Positions 25,634 to 33,698 are shown, counted from the first letter of the stretch. The stretch is DNA of 64,000 nt from Negativicutes bacterium (GCA_009929485.1 SAAJ01000013.1:1-64000), one strand, 5' to 3'. The notes: generated by a model from the letters alone, not told the origin. Numbers and translations: made by a program.

Positions 25634-25694
25634 GGTGCAATAATGCTGCGTGGTGCAATAATGCTGCGTGGTGCAATAATGCTGCGTGGTGCAA
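25634..25694 (+). repeat. 18-bp tandem repeat, 3.4 copies
   Basis: GGTGCAATAATGCTGCGT occurs at 25634-25651, 25652-25669 and 25670-25687, identical in all three, with a partial fourth. Being a multiple of three it encodes repeated MLRGAI in a 44-codon frame from 25643, but nothing else supports coding. Confidence 0.9.
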
Positions 25695-25792: not shown

Positions 25793-25859
25793 CCTCTTAA
25801 ATAGAACAGCCGGCAATCACGCCTAGATGACGTGATTGCCGGCTGTTCTATTTAAGAGG
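25793..25859. terminator. perfect 29-bp inverted repeat at the end of the GntR gene
   Basis: CCTCTTAAATAGAACAGCCG (left arm begins 25793) continues to 25821. After a nine-base loop its exact complement runs 25831-25859. The right arm includes the GntR stop codon and last codons. It should act as a strong transcription stop in both directions and closes the foreign island. Confidence 0.8.
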
Positions 25860-26481
25860 CAGGAGGACTAAAAGAAAGCATCAGATGTTCGATGTCGGCT
25901 TTTAAAATGGATACGGCCATTTTGATTTCGCCTTTTTCCAGATAATCGACCAAGGCCAAGTGCAGATCCATCGAAGCGGAATGCTGCTTTTGCACAAAGA
26001 AGATCGTTTGAATGTTTAAAGCGTCTTCTAACAGTTTATAAGCGTAATGGTTGCCGTAGATGGAAAAAAGTTTTAAGTGGAATTCACAGTTGTAGCGCCA
26101 ATGCGACATGAAATCGCCGCTGGGGCAATTGCTGTAGTTGATGCAGATGCTGCGCAGTTCTTGGATCCACGCGGCGTCTATATAGCTGCGGTACATTTCC
26201 AGGAAAGAACATTCTAAAGCCGAACGGAAGCGAATGACTTCCAGCAGTTGTTCGGCGCTTGGCTGTAGAATTTTATAGCCTTGCCGCGGCATACTGGACA
26301 ATAGACGCGTGCCTGTTAGTTGCGTCAAGGCTTCACGGATGGGGGCGCGGCTGACATTGTATTTTTCCATGAGGAATTTTTCGGTCAGGATGGTATCGGC
26401 GGGATAGTTTCCATTGATGATATCAGAAAAAAGAGCATTGTATACTTGCTGCTTTAGTGAGTCGTTAGGATGTTTTGTCAT
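25852..26481 (-). CDS. GntR-family (FCD-type) transcriptional regulator
   Basis: A 209-residue regulator. Residues 5-75 are the winged HTH (LKQQVYNALFSDIINGNYPA, EKYNVSRAPIREALTQLTGT, RQGYKI). Residues 85-205 are a helical FCD ligand-binding domain, usually specific for a small organic acid. ATG at 26481 after AAGGAG. It is divergent from the ATC-hydrolase/cysteine-desulfidase/MFS operon, and the 350-bp gap holds three similar palindromic sites, so it probably controls that operon and itself. Confidence 0.88.
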   Translation of the reverse strand: MTKHPNDSLKQQVYNALFSDIINGNYPADTILTEKFLMEKYNVSRAPIREALTQLTGTRLLSSMPRQGYKILQPSAEQLLEVIRFRSALECSFLEMYRSYIDAAWIQELRSICINYSNCPSGDFMSHWRYNCEFHLKLFSIYGNHYAYKLLEDALNIQTIFFVQKQHSASMDLHLALVDYLEKGEIKMAVSILKADIEHLMLSFSPPAS

Positions 26482-26563: not shown

Positions 26564-26792
26564 CTAGTCATATCACGAAAAAGCGAAGAATATATAAAAA
26601 GTGAACATAAAACAAGCTAAAAATGAGAAATTAAAAGATGTTTTGCCATGGATCGAGAAAAGACAGAAAATACATTGCTTAAGAAAATGAGTTGTGATAT
26701 GATTACGAAAAGCAAAGAGCTGCAGAACTTTGCTTGCTATAAGAGAAGGCTCTATGGAATAAGGGGACTTGTTGTTCTTGTGATCATATCAA
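26564..26792. promoter_or_regulatory. candidate GntR operators, pattern GTGAT-N3-ATCAC
   Basis: Three related 13-mers lie in the divergent gap: CTAGTCATATCAC (26564-26576), GTGATATGATTAC (26694-26706) and GTGATCATATCAA (26780-26792). Each keeps one perfect half-site and a variable second half. The last is 40 bp before the first gene of the operon. The rest of this 350-bp gap is AT-rich and shows no supported gene. Confidence 0.5.
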
Positions 26793-26832: not shown

Positions 26833-27336
26833 ATGATTGATAACAAAATTAGCATTAAAGGCGATGCTGTAGTAGATATTCAAAGAGGGGCTATCGGTCA
26901 TCGGGCTACTTGGACCGGCCTAACCTACACGCATGCTTGCAAAGCTGGCAAAGCGCAGGAAATGGAAGAAATCATTCGCGCGGCTATCGCGGAAACGGGT
27001 TTGATCCAAGGCGCAGAAATTAAAGCGCAGTGTCCGGATCCGGAGAATGTGACTTCTTTTGCGGATACGTTTTTCTCCCCGAATGTAGTTAAGACCTTTG
27101 AAGTAGAGTTCAAAAGCAAAAGCGCAGACCGGATTGATCTGGAGTTTCATCACTGCCCTCTTTTGAAAGCCTGGCAGGATTTGGGATTTGACGATGAAAC
27201 CTGTGAGAAGCTTTGTGATATGGCGATGGACGGCGATCGGGGCATTGCCAAAGCCATGGGTTATGAATTCCACCTGGGCGATACCATTGCCAACGGTTGT
27301 CCTACCTGCCAAATTTCTTTCTTTAAGAAAGCATAG
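26833..27336 (+). CDS. L-2-amino-thiazoline-4-carboxylate hydrolase family protein
   Basis: The family is named for a Pseudomonas enzyme that opens the ATC ring to N-carbamoyl-cysteine; many members have unknown substrates. In this 167-residue protein the conserved end is clear: LEFHHCPLLKAWQDLGFDDE, CEKLCDMAMDGDRGIAKAMG, then HLGDTIANGCPTCQISFFKK. It includes HHCP and a CPTC pair that could hold a metal. AGGAG sits 7 nt before the ATG. The next gene encodes an L-cysteine-desulfidase-like enzyme, which supports a sulfur amino acid route. The real substrate is unproven. Confidence 0.75.
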   Translation: MIDNKISIKGDAVVDIQRGAIGHRATWTGLTYTHACKAGKAQEMEEIIRAAIAETGLIQGAEIKAQCPDPENVTSFADTFFSPNVVKTFEVEFKSKSADRIDLEFHHCPLLKAWQDLGFDDETCEKLCDMAMDGDRGIAKAMGYEFHLGDTIANGCPTCQISFFKKA

Positions 27337-27371
27337 AATTGTTTTAACGGGCGGGAGAGGAGCAGGCAAGT

Positions 27372-28637
27372 ATGGATGCAAAGCAATATGAAAATTATTT
27401 GACCATCTTAAAAGGGGAATTGATTCCGGCCATGGGCTGTACCGAGCCGATCGCCATCGCCTTTGCGGCGGCAAAAGCCAGAGAAGCCTTAGGACAAATG
27501 CCGGAAGAAATGCTGGCTCGCTGCAGCGGCAATATCATTAAAAATGTGAAGGGCGTTATCGTACCCAATTCGGGCGGGCAAAAAGGCGTAGCCGCCGCCG
27601 CGGTGCTGGGGGCTGTCGCCGGTCAGGCCGAGCGGGAATTAGAGGTCATCAGCCAGGTGACGCCGGAGCAAATAGAAATGGCGCGTCAATTGACGGCGCA
27701 GGGCATTTGTCGCTGCGAATTGGAAGAAGGCGAGGAAAATCTCTTCATTCGCATAGAAGTGAAAGCCGGTTTTCAAGCTGCTGCGGTAGAGGTGCGGACA
27801 AGGCATAATCACATCTATCGTATTGAAAAAAACGGCGAGCTTCTTTTCTCGCAGCCGGAACTGGCGACGTCAACCTTTGGCGATAAAAGTCAGCTTACAA
27901 TTCAGGACATTCTCTGTTTTGCCGATGAGGTACGCCTAGAGGACGTGCGGGATATTATTGCCCGGCAGATTGCCTGCAACTCCGCCATCTCTGAAGAAGG
28001 CCTGAAAAACCCCTGGGGAGCACAAGTGGGACGCACCTTCTTGGAAGCCGGCTGCGACGATGTGCGGACTAAGGCTCGCGCGGCGGCGGCGGCAGGTTCC
28101 GATGCGCGTATGAACGGCTGCGCCATGCCGGTAGTCATCAATTCCGGCAGCGGCAATCAGGGCATTACTTGTACTATGCCGGTAGTGGTGTACGCCCAGG
28201 AGTTGGGAGTTGACGAGGACCGGCTGTATCGGGCGTTGGTCTTGGCGAATCTTCTCTCGCTGCACCAAAAGCGTTATATCGGCAATCTCTCGGCGTACTG
28301 CGGCGCCGTTTCGGCGGGCGCGGCCGCAGCCTGCGGCATTGCGTATCTGCAAGGCGGCGATTATGATGTAATCGGCAGAACCCTGATTAACTCGTTGGGG
28401 AACGTAGGCGGCATTGTCTGCGACGGCGCTAAGGCGTCCTGCGCGGCGAAGATATCCAGCGCCGTAGATGCGGGGATTATGGGGTATGAGCTGGCTAAAC
28501 GGGAGCGGTTTTTTCCCTTTGGCGAAGGCTTGGTAGAGAAGGATTATGAGCAGACTTTGCGAAATATTGGACGTATGGGCTGCTGTGGCATGAAAACTAC
28601 CGATGTGGAAATACTCAATATTATGATTGGCAATTGA
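27372..28637 (+). CDS. L-cysteine desulfidase / serine dehydratase alpha-like enzyme (UPF0597, CyuA/CdsB type)
   Basis: Family enzymes use a [4Fe-4S] cluster to split L-cysteine (or L-serine) into pyruvate, ammonia and sulfide (or water). The 421-residue protein has the MGCTEPIAIAFAAA motif with C23, the glycine-rich NSGGQKGVAAAAV, the SGSGNQGITCTMP loop and later Cys-containing segments SAYCGAVSAGAAAACG and GIVCDGAKASCA that supply cluster ligands. GGAG precedes the ATG. It lies 35 bp after the ATC-hydrolase-like gene and 39 bp before a carrier, forming one operon. Whether cysteine, serine or a derivative is the true substrate is open. Confidence 0.88.
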   Translation: MDAKQYENYLTILKGELIPAMGCTEPIAIAFAAAKAREALGQMPEEMLARCSGNIIKNVKGVIVPNSGGQKGVAAAAVLGAVAGQAERELEVISQVTPEQIEMARQLTAQGICRCELEEGEENLFIRIEVKAGFQAAAVEVRTRHNHIYRIEKNGELLFSQPELATSTFGDKSQLTIQDILCFADEVRLEDVRDIIARQIACNSAISEEGLKNPWGAQVGRTFLEAGCDDVRTKARAAAAAGSDARMNGCAMPVVINSGSGNQGITCTMPVVVYAQELGVDEDRLYRALVLANLLSLHQKRYIGNLSAYCGAVSAGAAAACGIAYLQGGDYDVIGRTLINSLGNVGGIVCDGAKASCAAKISSAVDAGIMGYELAKRERFFPFGEGLVEKDYEQTLRNIGRMGCCGMKTTDVEILNIMIGN

Positions 28638-28676
28638 GTAGTAAAGGAATAATCGATATCTGCGGGAGGAACGCAT

Positions 28677-29912
28677 ATGAAAAAGCGCTGGCTTGTTTTA
28701 GGCGTCTCATGGATCGTGTTTTTCGTAGCTTTTTTGGATCGAGTCAATCTGTCGGTAGCCATGCCGTTGATCTCTAAGGAGTTTTCTTTATCTCCGGAGC
28801 AGGTAGGCTATTTGTTTAGCGCATTCTTTATTTCCTATACGGTCTTTCAGATTCCGGGCGGTTATTTAAGTGATAAAGTGGGACCGAAAAAGGTGCTTCT
28901 TGTGGCGCTCGTTTGGTGGTCTATTATGACGATGGCTACCGGTGTGGCGCGGACCTTTTCGCAATTCTTCATCGTTCGCGTGCTCTTTGGCATTGGCGAA
29001 GGCTTGCAGCCTCCCTGCGCCTTTAAGCTCAACAGCAACTGGTTTCCGAATCAGGAACGGGCTACGGCGAACGCGATCTTTACTTCGGCCTGTTCCTTCG
29101 GACCGGCGATTGCGCCGTCCATTGCGGTGGCAATTATTGGCCTCTGGGGCTGGCATGCGTTGTTCTATATTTTCGGCGCCTTGGGTTTTGTAATTATGCC
29201 GTTACTGTACTTCTTTGTGAAAAACTCTCCCGAAGAGGACCCGGACATTTCCAAGGAAGAGCTGGAATATATTAAGAGCGGCCAGACGGAAATTGTTACT
29301 CAGACGACAGATTCAGAAGAAGTGGGCTTGATGAGCGTGCTCAAAAACCGCAACATTGTGCTTTTGGCGCTTACGTACTTCGGCTTTATGTGCGCCTTCT
29401 TCGGTCTTCTTTCTTGGCTGCCCAGTTATCTCGTAAAAGCCAGAGGCTTTGAACTGGTGAAAATGGGCATTTTTTCGGGGTTGCCCTTCTTAGCGCTGGG
29501 CATTGCCCAACCCTTCGGCGGCTGGCTGTCGGATAAGGTGTTCAAAGGGAAGCGCAAAATACAGGCCATGGTAGTAAATCTGGCCGCAGGCCCGGTTTTA
29601 TACGGTGTCGTAGTGGCGCCGACGGAAACGGTGGCGATGGCGCTCCTGGTATGCACTGGCTTCTTGGTGGGCATGGCCTTTGGTCCTTTGTGGGCGATGC
29701 CGATGGAATCGGTAAAACGCAGCTATGTGGGCATGGCTACAGGTGTGATGAACGCCGGCGGCAGCATCGGCGGCATTTTATCCCCCATTATCATTGGTTA
29801 CTTGGTAGGTATGTCCGGTTATAATGCCGCTTTCGTCTTCATGGGCGGAGCGCTGGTGTTTACGGCGTTGGTAGTATCGCTGGTTAAATTGCCACCAAGA
29901 GCGGAAGCATAA
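28677..29912 (+). CDS. MFS transporter, anion:cation symporter type
   Basis: A 411-residue carrier with 12 membrane segments. It starts with the ACS-family signature (WIVFFVAFLDRVNLSVAMPL, shown in part), followed by SKEFSLSPEQVGYLFSAFF and the GYLSDKVGPKK loop. Relatives import organic anions such as hexuronates, phthalate or pantothenate with protons. It follows the desulfidase gene with GGGAGGA at its start, so its cargo is probably the substrate of the two upstream enzymes. A strong hairpin closes the operon. Confidence 0.85.
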   Translation: MKKRWLVLGVSWIVFFVAFLDRVNLSVAMPLISKEFSLSPEQVGYLFSAFFISYTVFQIPGGYLSDKVGPKKVLLVALVWWSIMTMATGVARTFSQFFIVRVLFGIGEGLQPPCAFKLNSNWFPNQERATANAIFTSACSFGPAIAPSIAVAIIGLWGWHALFYIFGALGFVIMPLLYFFVKNSPEEDPDISKEELEYIKSGQTEIVTQTTDSEEVGLMSVLKNRNIVLLALTYFGFMCAFFGLLSWLPSYLVKARGFELVKMGIFSGLPFLALGIAQPFGGWLSDKVFKGKRKIQAMVVNLAAGPVLYGVVVAPTETVAMALLVCTGFLVGMAFGPLWAMPMESVKRSYVGMATGVMNAGGSIGGILSPIIIGYLVGMSGYNAAFVFMGGALVFTALVVSLVKLPPRAEA

Positions 29913-29916
29913 GCGA

Positions 29917-29978
29917 CGAAATAAAAAAACATGACCTTACCCTTCAAAACAGAAGGTTGAGGTCATGTTTTTATTTCG
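29917..29978. terminator. bidirectional terminator of the cysteine-type operon
   Basis: CGAAATAAAAAAACATGACC pairs with GGTCATGTTTTTATTTCG, with an inner CTTC/GAAG hairpin. Confidence 0.85.
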
Positions 29979-30067
29979 TTGCTGGCAAGCGAGGGGAAGA
30001 TGACGTACAATTAAAATTGTAAAAAAGAGGCAAAAGTTGCTTGTTGATCGTAAAGGGGGAGTCTAAT

Positions 30068-30863: not shown

Positions 30864-33428
30864 ATGGTGGAGCAGGAATGGGAATTGGCGCTTTTTCAGC
30901 CGCGAGATGCTGCTGGGGTTGTGGCCCTTTATCGGGAAGTGTACGGGGACTCCTATCCGGTGGCGGAGGTTTATGATCCGGCAGCGCTGCTAAAACAGGA
31001 GGAAGAGGGGGCTGCCTGGAGGGCGGTGGCTCGCAGCCATAACGGCGAGGTAATCGGCCACATTGCTTTTTACCGCTCCACGCCGCCGAATCCTAAGTTG
31101 TATGAATGCGGGCAGCTCATGGTGGCCCATGAATGGCGGCAAACTTCCGTGGGCTTTGCGCTGATGGAATATGCGCTGGCAGAAATTCCGCGCCAGCGTG
31201 GCTTAGAGCAGATTTGGGGCGAAGCGGTTTGCAATCATTTGTTCACGCAAATGATGATGACGAAACGGGGCTATCGCGAAACCGGCCTAGAGGTGGCGCT
31301 GATGCCGGGAGACGCTGCCAAGGGAGGTGAGCGAATCTCGACAGTGCTGATTTTTTCATCCCCCGGAGAAAGCGGGCAGACGGTGTATGTGCCGCAAGCG
31401 CATCAAGAAGCGTTCCCTTTGCTCTACGGCGATTTGGCGACAGGGTGTACGTTTATTCCTGCAACGGCCCCGCTGCCACAGGAAGAGGCGACAGCAGGCG
31501 CTATTGAGGTGTTTGGCGGTGCTGGTGTGGCGCGCTTGTCGATTACTAAAATCGGCGCGGACTTTGAGGCGAAGGCAGTCTTGTGGGAAAGCCAGGCTTC
31601 TGCAGCGGGGACTGTGATTTTGCAGGCATTTTTACGGTTGGGGGACGAAACAGTCGGGGCGGCGGTAGAAATATTGCGGCGGCGGGGCTATTTTCTGGGC
31701 GGCGTCTTGCCTGGCTGGTACGGCGGAGACGGCTTGCTCATGCAAAAAGTATCAATTGCCGTAGATGAAAAAGCCATTCATGTATACACCAAGAAGGCTA
31801 AGGCGATGAAGGCGCTGATCTTAAAAGACTGGGCGGAAGTGTGCCCGAAATCTTGGAGCGGGATGCTGCGCTTGGCGGCGACGAGGTGGCCGGAAAAGAC
31901 GGCGGCCGTGTATCCGCAGCAGGGCCGCTCCTATACGTATGCGCAAATGGAGGCAGAAGCGACTCAAGTGGCCAAAGGGCTTATGGCTTTAGGCATGGAG
32001 CGAGGCGAGCATGCCGCTATCTGGGCCTTTAATATTCCGGAATACCTTTCTGTACAGTTTGGCTGCTCTAGAGCGGGGGTGCCGCTGGTGCTGCTGAATA
32101 CGAATTACCGGGCGTATGAGCTGGAATATGTACTGCAGCATTCGGATGCGGCGGTGCTCTTTTTAGAGGCCCAAGGCAGCGGGAAAGAGGCCTGGCTGGA
32201 AGTGCTTCGTTCGGTGCGGGAGCGGCTGCCTAAGCTGCGCAAGGTAGTGTTTTTTAGCGCTGCTGAAGCAGCGGATATCCTTCTCTGGCAGGATTTTTTG
32301 GCTGGCGGAGCGCCGGTGCAGGAAGAAGCATATAGACAGCGGTGCAGCGAGGAACAGGCGCAGGATGTGTTTGTACTGCAATATACGTCGGGAACGACCG
32401 GCGTACCTAAAGGGGTGGTGCAATGCCAGCAGGCATACTTGTATAATGCCAGAGCTTACGGAGAACGTCAGGGACTGACGACCTCTTCGGTGTTGTGTTC
32501 GGCGCTGCCCTTCTTTCATGCCTATGGCAATGCGGTGATTTTGACGGCGCTGTACTATGGCGCCACCTTGGTGGGGGTAGAACGGTTTCAAGCGCCGGTG
32601 GTGCTGCAGGCAATTGCGGAGCAGGGCGTTACCAGCTTATCCGGCACGCCGACGATGTTTGTGGCGCTATTGGAGGAATGGGAACGCAATTCGTATGACA
32701 CGAGCTCGTTATGTACGGGCGATATGGCGGGAGCCAGCTGTCCGCCGGAACTGGTGCAGGCGGTGATTGAGAAGCTGGGAGCTACTGGTTTTAGCTGTCT
32801 ATATGGCTCTACGGAAGTGATCATCGCGTCTTTGGCCGGTCCCACAAGACCGCAAGAAGAGAGGCTACAGTGTGTCGGCACGGCGCTGCCGGGGATGGAA
32901 CTGCGCATTGTTAAAGCAGGGACGACGGAAGAGGTTCCTCTGGGTATTGAAGGTGAGCTGTGCGTACGGGGGCAGTCTTCAATGCTTCGGTATTATAAGA
33001 TGGAAGAAGAGACGCAAAAGGCTGTAGATGATGAGGGCTGGTGGCATAGCGGCGATATGGCCAAAATTGATGCGGCAGGATGCTGCCGTATCACGGGGCG
33101 CATTAAAGACTTGATTATCCGCGGCGGTGAAAATATAGGCCCTGCGGAAATCGAGACCTTTTTGATGACGCACCCCAAGGTGCTCGAGGCGCAGGTGGTT
33201 GGCGTCCCCAGCGAATATTACGGCGAAGATATTGTGGCCTTTGTGCGGTTGCAAAAAGGAGAAACCGCCAAGGTACTGGAACTAAAGCGGTATTGTTGGG
33301 AGCGGATTGCCTTAAACAAGGTACCCTTTATGTTTTTCTTCGTAGAGGAATTTCCTCTGACTGCCAGTGGCAAGGTGCAGAAATTCAAGCTGCGCGAGCT
33401 GGCGCTTGAAAATTTGACCAAGCAGTAA
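30864..33428 (+). CDS. GNAT acetyltransferase / acyl-adenylate ligase fusion
   Basis: An 854-residue protein. Residues 1-150 look like a GNAT acetyltransferase (NGEVIGHIAFYRS, CGQLMVAHEWRQTSVGFALM). Residues 175-300 look like a second, degenerate GNAT-like domain (GYFLGGVLPGWYGGDGLLMQ). Residues 330-850 are an AMP-forming ligase with YTSGTTGVPKG (507-517), the later STEVIIA, GWWHSGDM and GRIKDLIIRGGENIGPAEIE, and the C-terminal lysine region ASGKVQKFKL. It would activate a carboxylic acid as adenylate and load it on the carrier protein encoded next, with a built-in acyltransferase of unknown acceptor. ATG at 30864 after AAGAGG. Confidence 0.85.
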   Translation: MVEQEWELALFQPRDAAGVVALYREVYGDSYPVAEVYDPAALLKQEEEGAAWRAVARSHNGEVIGHIAFYRSTPPNPKLYECGQLMVAHEWRQTSVGFALMEYALAEIPRQRGLEQIWGEAVCNHLFTQMMMTKRGYRETGLEVALMPGDAAKGGERISTVLIFSSPGESGQTVYVPQAHQEAFPLLYGDLATGCTFIPATAPLPQEEATAGAIEVFGGAGVARLSITKIGADFEAKAVLWESQASAAGTVILQAFLRLGDETVGAAVEILRRRGYFLGGVLPGWYGGDGLLMQKVSIAVDEKAIHVYTKKAKAMKALILKDWAEVCPKSWSGMLRLAATRWPEKTAAVYPQQGRSYTYAQMEAEATQVAKGLMALGMERGEHAAIWAFNIPEYLSVQFGCSRAGVPLVLLNTNYRAYELEYVLQHSDAAVLFLEAQGSGKEAWLEVLRSVRERLPKLRKVVFFSAAEAADILLWQDFLAGGAPVQEEAYRQRCSEEQAQDVFVLQYTSGTTGVPKGVVQCQQAYLYNARAYGERQGLTTSSVLCSALPFFHAYGNAVILTALYYGATLVGVERFQAPVVLQAIAEQGVTSLSGTPTMFVALLEEWERNSYDTSSLCTGDMAGASCPPELVQAVIEKLGATGFSCLYGSTEVIIASLAGPTRPQEERLQCVGTALPGMELRIVKAGTTEEVPLGIEGELCVRGQSSMLRYYKMEEETQKAVDDEGWWHSGDMAKIDAAGCCRITGRIKDLIIRGGENIGPAEIETFLMTHPKVLEAQVVGVPSEYYGEDIVAFVRLQKGETAKVLELKRYCWERIALNKVPFMFFFVEEFPLTASGKVQKFKLRELALENLTKQ

Positions 33429-33449
33429 ATGAATAGAGGAGGAGCGAAT

Positions 33450-33698
33450 ATGGACGTAAACGAGATTGAAAAAGTGATTCGAGGTATTTTAGCGGAACGA
33501 GTACCCGGCTTGAAGGTCGAGGATATTGCGCCGCAAGCGGAACTGTCCTCGTTGGGGCTGGATTCTCTGGCTTTCAGCTGGGTTTTGGCCGATTTGGAAG
33601 AAGCTTTTGATATTGTGATGCAGGGTTCGGATATTTTGCACCTAAAAACCTTGGCGGCGGCGGTTGAATACGTAGCCAAGCGGTTGCAGGAAGCATAA
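33450..33698 (+). CDS. acyl carrier protein
   Basis: An 82-residue carrier protein. The phosphopantetheine site is the Ser of LSSLGLDSLAFSW (about residue 36), followed by ADLEEAFDI and the third-helix ILHLKTLAAAVEYV. The start is the ATG at 33450 after GAGGAGG. It lies 21 nt after the ligase fusion, so it should be the acceptor of the activated acyl group. It is not in a fatty-acid operon, and no ketosynthase or thioesterase is nearby. Confidence 0.9.
   Translation: MDVNEIEKVIRGILAERVPGLKVEDIAPQAELSSLGLDSLAFSWVLADLEEAFDIVMQGSDILHLKTLAAAVEYVAKRLQEA

Follow-up and report, generated by a model that had tools for sequence, protein, structure and literature searches.

Among the described systems closest to the one considered here are the ATC hydrolase of Pseudomonas ON-4a, the founding member of family PF14196, which is described as cleaving the C-S bond of the thiazoline ring (2018 paper, PMC5847659), and the CyuA protein of Methanococcus maripaludis. 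In the latter the cluster ligands are Cys287, Cys329 and Cys336, and changes to Cys23 and Glu25, both of which are missing from serine dehydratases, inactivate the enzyme; CyuA is also able to hand sulfur to other Fe-S enzymes (PMC12647591). Here we describe a locus in which homologs of these two proteins are encoded side by side, for which gene content, family membership, fold, conserved residues, gene linkage, operator conservation and the terminator were computed.

In the window (the whole 64-kb stretch of Negativicutes DNA that was analysed), three genes follow each other on the plus strand. The first (26833..27336, 167 aa) encodes a member of the PF14196 'ATC hydrolase' family (81.2 bits against a Pfam cut-off of 28.1), the second (27372..28637, 421 aa) a CyuA-type [4Fe-4S] L-cysteine desulfidase (PF03313, 214.8 bits against 26.4), and the third (28677..29912, 411 aa) an MFS carrier of the anion:cation symporter (DgoT/VGLUT/sialin) type (MFS_1, 265.1 bits against 33.4). 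The gaps between them are 35 and 39 bp, each gene is preceded by a Shine-Dalgarno-like sequence, and a strong hairpin 3' of the MFS gene, accompanied by a T run, is the predicted intrinsic terminator of the operon (29912..29980, plus strand; RNA fold -43.6 kcal/mol, z -11). Divergent from the operon, on the minus strand, lies the gene for an FCD-type GntR transcriptional regulator (25852..26481, 209 aa; GntR 55.1 bits against 27, FCD 34.0 bits against 24.3). The gene calls, Pfam scores, gaps and strands thus bear out the initial annotation in its positions and family calls for all four genes and in its description of a tight operon divergent from the regulator. A long near-perfect hairpin between an ABC-F gene and the regulator gene (25798..25860, assigned to neither strand; RNA fold -58.3 kcal/mol, z -14) is a probable terminator for both. 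The neighboring ABC-F, L,D-transpeptidase and ligase genes do not accompany the operon in related loci, and we did not count them as members. Outside the operon, an 18-base perfect tandem repeat of 3.4 copies (GGTGCAATAATGCTGCGT, 25634-25694) lies downstream of the ABC-F gene, and at 30864-33698 an 854-aa fusion of an acetyltransferase-like part with an AMP-dependent ligase is encoded ahead of an acyl-carrier-like protein; to judge from the sequence alone, these last two genes may form a small biosynthetic unit.

In most related loci, the operon genes likewise diverge from a gene for a close homolog of the regulator. An operator motif with the core TGATATGATYA is common to the regions upstream of 16 related operons; its full form, about TCGTRATATGATYACGA, is an imperfect 17-base dyad. 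With at most one mismatch, TGATATGATNA is matched 31 times in these 16 regions against 2.5 matches expected, and the maximum among 200 randomised sets was 9. The window carries three copies of the core, one with a single mismatch (TGATATGACTA, 26565..26575, minus strand) and two exact (TTGTGATATGATTACGAA, 26695..26705, plus strand; TGATATGATCA, 26781..26791, minus strand), spaced by about 130 and 86 bases; three related loci (L014, L015 and L032) also have three copies each, at similar spacing (127-128 and 80-91 bases). In the whole 64-kb window the exact core has just two occurrences (0.02 expected), both in the intergenic region between regulator and operon. The conservation of the operator and the confinement of its exact copies to this region support control of the operon by the divergent regulator. 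The GntR/FCD protein would hold the divergent promoters off through the three copies, possibly with DNA looping between them, and binding of the compound or of a product to the protein would bring about derepression.

To place the first gene, we built a tree of 152 PF14196 members, in which the window protein falls into a large group, here called type II, with the motifs HRATW, FHxCPL and CDxAMDGDR, separated from a type I group by a branch with 95% SH-aLRT support. Among the 300 genomes of a class sample, whose genome set was built differently from that of the public genome scan described next, CyuA lies directly beside all 21 of the 21 close homologs of the window PF14196 gene, 4 of which come from the window's own genus, and because of this the pairing is not a matter of chance. 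The global sample, from the public scan, comprises 71 loci, many of them truncated, at which the neighbors of the type II gene include CyuA (26/71) and LIV-type binding proteins (24/71). Well-supported branches of the tree force at least five separate changes in CyuA linkage. In a phylum sample, two type II genes (L164, L170) have a divergent CyuA next to them and another (L152/L188) a Cys/Met PLP enzyme; on Azospirillum plasmids the genes are ordered RidA, Cds1-type cysteine desulfhydrase (535 bits, below the model cut-off of 600), type II gene, five LIV genes, type I gene, M20 amidohydrolase and an L-pipecolate-oxidase-like FAD oxidoreductase. PLP fold-I matches also lie upstream of the ATC-family gene at L052 and L054, and RidA, which clears the 2-aminoacrylate produced by cysteine-type lyases, recurs near type II genes. 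Hence three non-homologous sulfur-amino-acid enzymes (CyuA, Cds1-type with RidA, and the Cys/Met PLP enzyme) occupy the same place beside the type II gene; of all the evidence, this replacement of one family by unrelated others argues most strongly that the type II reaction yields cysteine or a near relative of it. On the other side, some type II loci have no C-S lyase (L015, L023, L033, L044, L048 and the PepT-linked group L070/L073/L078). The initial annotation had called for such a survey of the hydrolase family and had proposed the uptake and complete breakdown of a sulfur compound by an undescribed route; the repeated linkage to cysteine-destroying enzymes of differing ancestry supports that proposal for a compound of the cysteine type.

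The reading that we prefer, to which we give about an even chance, is that the operon imports a cysteine derivative, that the PF14196 protein opens its ring and releases cysteine, and that CyuA destroys the cysteine. The MFS carrier would import a compound that most likely contains a five-membered N,S-ring, for which a thiazoline- or thiazolidine-4-carboxylate, i.e. a condensation product of cysteine, is the candidate. The type II protein, a predicted cysteine-releasing ring hydrolase, would cut the C-S bond of the ring, and the CyuA-type enzyme would convert the free cysteine to pyruvate, ammonia and sulfide. In the thiazolidine case one-step hydrolysis would yield free cysteine and a carbonyl compound, which would explain an operon with neither carbamoylase nor aminoacylase. 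Neighbors of the type II gene in the same 71 loci include DhaK (12/71), SDR, or short-chain dehydrogenase (9/71), and AKR, or aldo-keto reductase (2/71), enzymes whose substrates are ketones or aldehydes. At L176 the ATC-family gene and CyuA are flanked by two DhaK-DhaL pairs, followed by DhaM (129.9 bits against 98.25), an HPr-like gene and PTS enzyme I; the DhaK of L041 scores 478 against an equivalog cut-off of 406, and SDR or aldo-keto reductase genes stand in the DhaK position at other loci. From this gene context we infer that the other half of the substrate may be a carbonyl compound. The Azospirillum plasmids could hold a variant that runs from thiazolidine through thiazoline and N-acyl-cysteine to cysteine; the oxidase encoded there would make the thiazoline, and this would account for the presence of the amidohydrolase.

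A more ambitious form of the preferred reading is that type II PF14196 proteins act as hydrolases of thiazolidine-4-carboxylates, splitting cysteine-carbonyl adducts (e.g. with dihydroxyacetone), and that they define a widespread, mostly anaerobic route in which the importers, the cysteine lyases (CyuA, Cds1, Cys/Met PLP) and the carbonyl-handling enzymes (DhaK-DhaL-DhaM, SDR, AKR) are each interchangeable. We offer this as a tentative generalisation, and in its full extent we think it rather unlikely. The dihydroxyacetone-kinase genes also led us to consider S-glyceryl-cysteine (from lipoproteins) as the substrate, which was rejected as no redox-free route fits L176. At one clostridial locus (L179, 3242-6697, Clostridiales) two MtaA/CmuA-like methyltransferase genes flank the CyuA gene beside the type II gene, and there the substrate is possibly a methylated sulfur compound.

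The MFS protein of the window is closest to DgoT (6e9n, E 1.8e-47), the vesicular glutamate transporters and sialin. Its TIGR00893 score of 276.5 bits is below the cut-off of 395, which places it in the same broad symporter family as the D-galactonate transporter, with a specificity that may differ; it is probably an importer. Carriers associated with the ATC-CyuA pair vary, from this MFS anion carrier to membrane proteins of 370 and 433 aa, a DASS-type anion carrier and a LIV importer. That amino-acid carriers and organic-anion carriers both occur is consistent with an acidic amino-acid derivative as the substrate, and as the carriers differ between loci, the substrate may differ too. The 433-aa membrane proteins (L017:4675-5973, L021:3730-5109 and six more loci), which stand in the carrier position, gave no significant match in Pfam or NCBIfam, and the model of the L017 type is poor (pLDDT 58.5). 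A second carrier-like family, of about 370 aa (L012:8131-9234, L025:8004-9131 and six more loci), is found 3' of CyuA, or directly 3' of the ATC-family gene, in eight related operons and gave no match in Pfam.

Three other explanations have to be weighed against ring opening to cysteine. The initial annotation took the first enzyme as the equivalent of the Pseudomonas ATC hydrolase, and on such an account the PF14196 protein would turn 2-aminothiazoline-4-carboxylate into N-carbamoyl-cysteine, an unlinked carbamoylase would release cysteine, and CyuA would degrade it. Membership of PF14196 agrees with this route, as does the existence of true AtcB-AtcC-like pairs, next to LIV importers, in Pseudomonadota, and the genome does contain one TIGR01879 carbamoylase-family gene (G000:C7:63071-64264, 382 bits against 204). 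The earlier statement that no carbamoylase is present therefore stands for the operon, none of whose genes encodes one, but falls for the genome, where this gene lies on another contig. However, the PF14196 proteins that each adjoin a TIGR01879 carbamoylase in the AtcB-AtcC arrangement (L116, L117, L120 and L126) belong to type I, and the window protein, in the other clade, is 12-16% identical to them; it does not group with AtcB proper, a clade recognised by its AtcC-like neighbor and not by a characterised Pseudomonas sequence. Moreover, across the 71 related loci, no TIGR01879-type carbamoylase adjoins the type II gene. The equivalence with the Pseudomonas enzyme is thus not supported as it was worded, and because the window protein lies outside the carbamoylase-paired clade at this low identity, ATC or carbamoyl-cysteine is only one candidate among substrates. 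The link to an ATC/N-carbamoyl-cysteine route is weak and the narrow reading is not favored; we regard the route as improbable.

A second alternative makes the PF14196 protein an accessory of CyuA, a Cys-rich metal or sulfur binder serving as sulfide acceptor, cluster keeper or sensor, in an operon that handles plain cysteine. The AlphaFold2 model of the window protein (pLDDT 97.3) has a TRAPP/V4R-like fold, its best PDB matches being TRAPP Bet3 and the V4R sensor domains of PoxR and MopR (Foldseek probability 1.00, TM 0.5-0.6). A search of the ATC-family profile against PDB sequences returned chance-level helicase matches only, so that the link in fold is drawn from the model and from an earlier remark that V4R, ATC hydrolase and MetOD1 have a three-Cys cluster in common (PMC5847659); a viral structure library yielded nothing matching. 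Across 155 PF14196 members, Cys108, Cys128, Cys159 and Asp135 (window numbering) are conserved at 99, 99, 99 and 97%, and together with Gly155 they are the only residues common to the whole family. We infer that they form a Cys3-Asp metal site, and the invariant set resembles the zinc-binding Cys3-Glu set found in phenol sensors such as DmpR (PMC7264223). Such a likeness, and the capacity of CyuA to pass on sulfur, are what an accessory would call for, but type II proteins occur equally often with LIV importers, DhaK or SDR and without CyuA. In addition, the genome encodes a second CyuA (contig C120, 30% identical to the window copy) that has its own permease gene just before it, named APC-type from the start of its sequence only, and no PF14196 partner at that locus. 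This second pair suggests that free cysteine is probably not what the window CyuA, with its operon, is there to handle, and we consider an accessory role slightly less likely than the ATC route.

The CyuA-type protein of the window aligns over its full length with the solved L-cysteine desulfidases 9he0 and 9fsl (E about 1e-21). The residues Cys23, Glu25, Arg223, Cys287, Cys329 and Cys336 of M. maripaludis correspond to Cys23, Glu25, Arg246, Cys310, Cys350 and Cys357 in the window protein, and all six are invariant in alignment A2. That the enzyme instead acts on another beta-substituted alanine (a serine derivative or an O- or S-substituted alanine), with the operon degrading a non-cysteine compound, is the least probable explanation and very unlikely, for although PF03313 takes in serine dehydratases as well and some partners are general amino-acid importers, Cys23 and Glu25, which serine dehydratases lack, are conserved, and Cds1-type and Cys/Met PLP enzymes substitute for CyuA at other loci. 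Where a sulfur (or serine-like) substrate had been proposed, sulfur is upheld and serine becomes less likely, and a reading in which the substrate is purely a serine derivative was ranked low on these same grounds, i.e. the two retained residues and the cysteine/sulfur-amino-acid lyases that replace CyuA.

PF14196 genes also occur in other settings. A second paralog in the same genome (G000:C8; L174:1676-2173), 15% identical to the window protein, adjoins a MerR-like gene, and an aldo-keto reductase gene lies close by in the same orientation. On a Cetobacterium somerae plasmid (L088, 6959-7465) a PF14196 gene lies between genes for a PepV-type dipeptidase and a 4-hydroxybutyrate dehydrogenase, and on an Enterobacter plasmid (L092, 6815-11769) one has genes for a GntR protein, an amino-acid binding protein, a SIS-domain protein and a PfkB kinase nearby, which together resemble sugar-amine (Amadori) operons; relatives of this last copy are found on many Enterobacter and Klebsiella plasmids. 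The Cetobacterium setting suggests that the family may not be confined to sulfur compounds, and these dissimilar surroundings, with 4-hydroxybutyrate and sugar-phosphate genes, that its chemistry may be broader.

Adducts of cysteine with carbonyl compounds and with cyanide arise spontaneously on any contact of cysteine with aldehydes, sugars or cyanide, the gut and anaerobic sediments being among the places where this happens; to our knowledge their fate in anaerobic bacteria is largely unknown. If ring opening to cysteine is correct, a widespread family that is annotated from one distant Pseudomonas enzyme would gain a testable general role, and a new bacterial source of hydrogen sulfide would be identified; the conserved operator and the recurring gene partners offer direct handles toward the substrate. 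In the open literature, with most subscription journals outside the scope of our search, we found no study or assay of a type II protein or of the operon. The parts are of known kinds, but the pathway and its substrate are, as far as we could find, undescribed.

Compared with known systems, the operon combines familiar elements in a different way. The AtcB-type/AtcC-type system of Pseudomonas shares with it a PF14196 protein with the same three invariant Cys and the Asp, and both AtcB-type and type II genes are linked to LIV importers; however, AtcB-type proteins form part of the type I clade, at the low identity given above, and the window operon has a CyuA in place of any carbamoylase. The V4R domains (PoxR, MopR, DmpR), TRAPP Bet3 and MetOD1 share the fold and the three-Cys cluster with the window protein, but they are ligand-binding or scaffold domains, to which the ATC-family profile has no sequence match. 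Methanococcus maripaludis CyuA (9fsl, 9fyi, 9he0, 9he2), compared by protein only, is homologous over its full length and has all six residues in common with the window protein, of which it is nevertheless a distant relative. Finally, E. coli cyuPA and other CyuA/importer operons likewise join an importer to a CyuA-type desulfidase for cysteine fermentation (PMC9040844), whereas the window operon and its relatives have an additional PF14196 enzyme and an organic-anion MFS or LIV-type importer instead of a cysteine importer, and the window operon appears to be placed under FCD-GntR control with a conserved operator.
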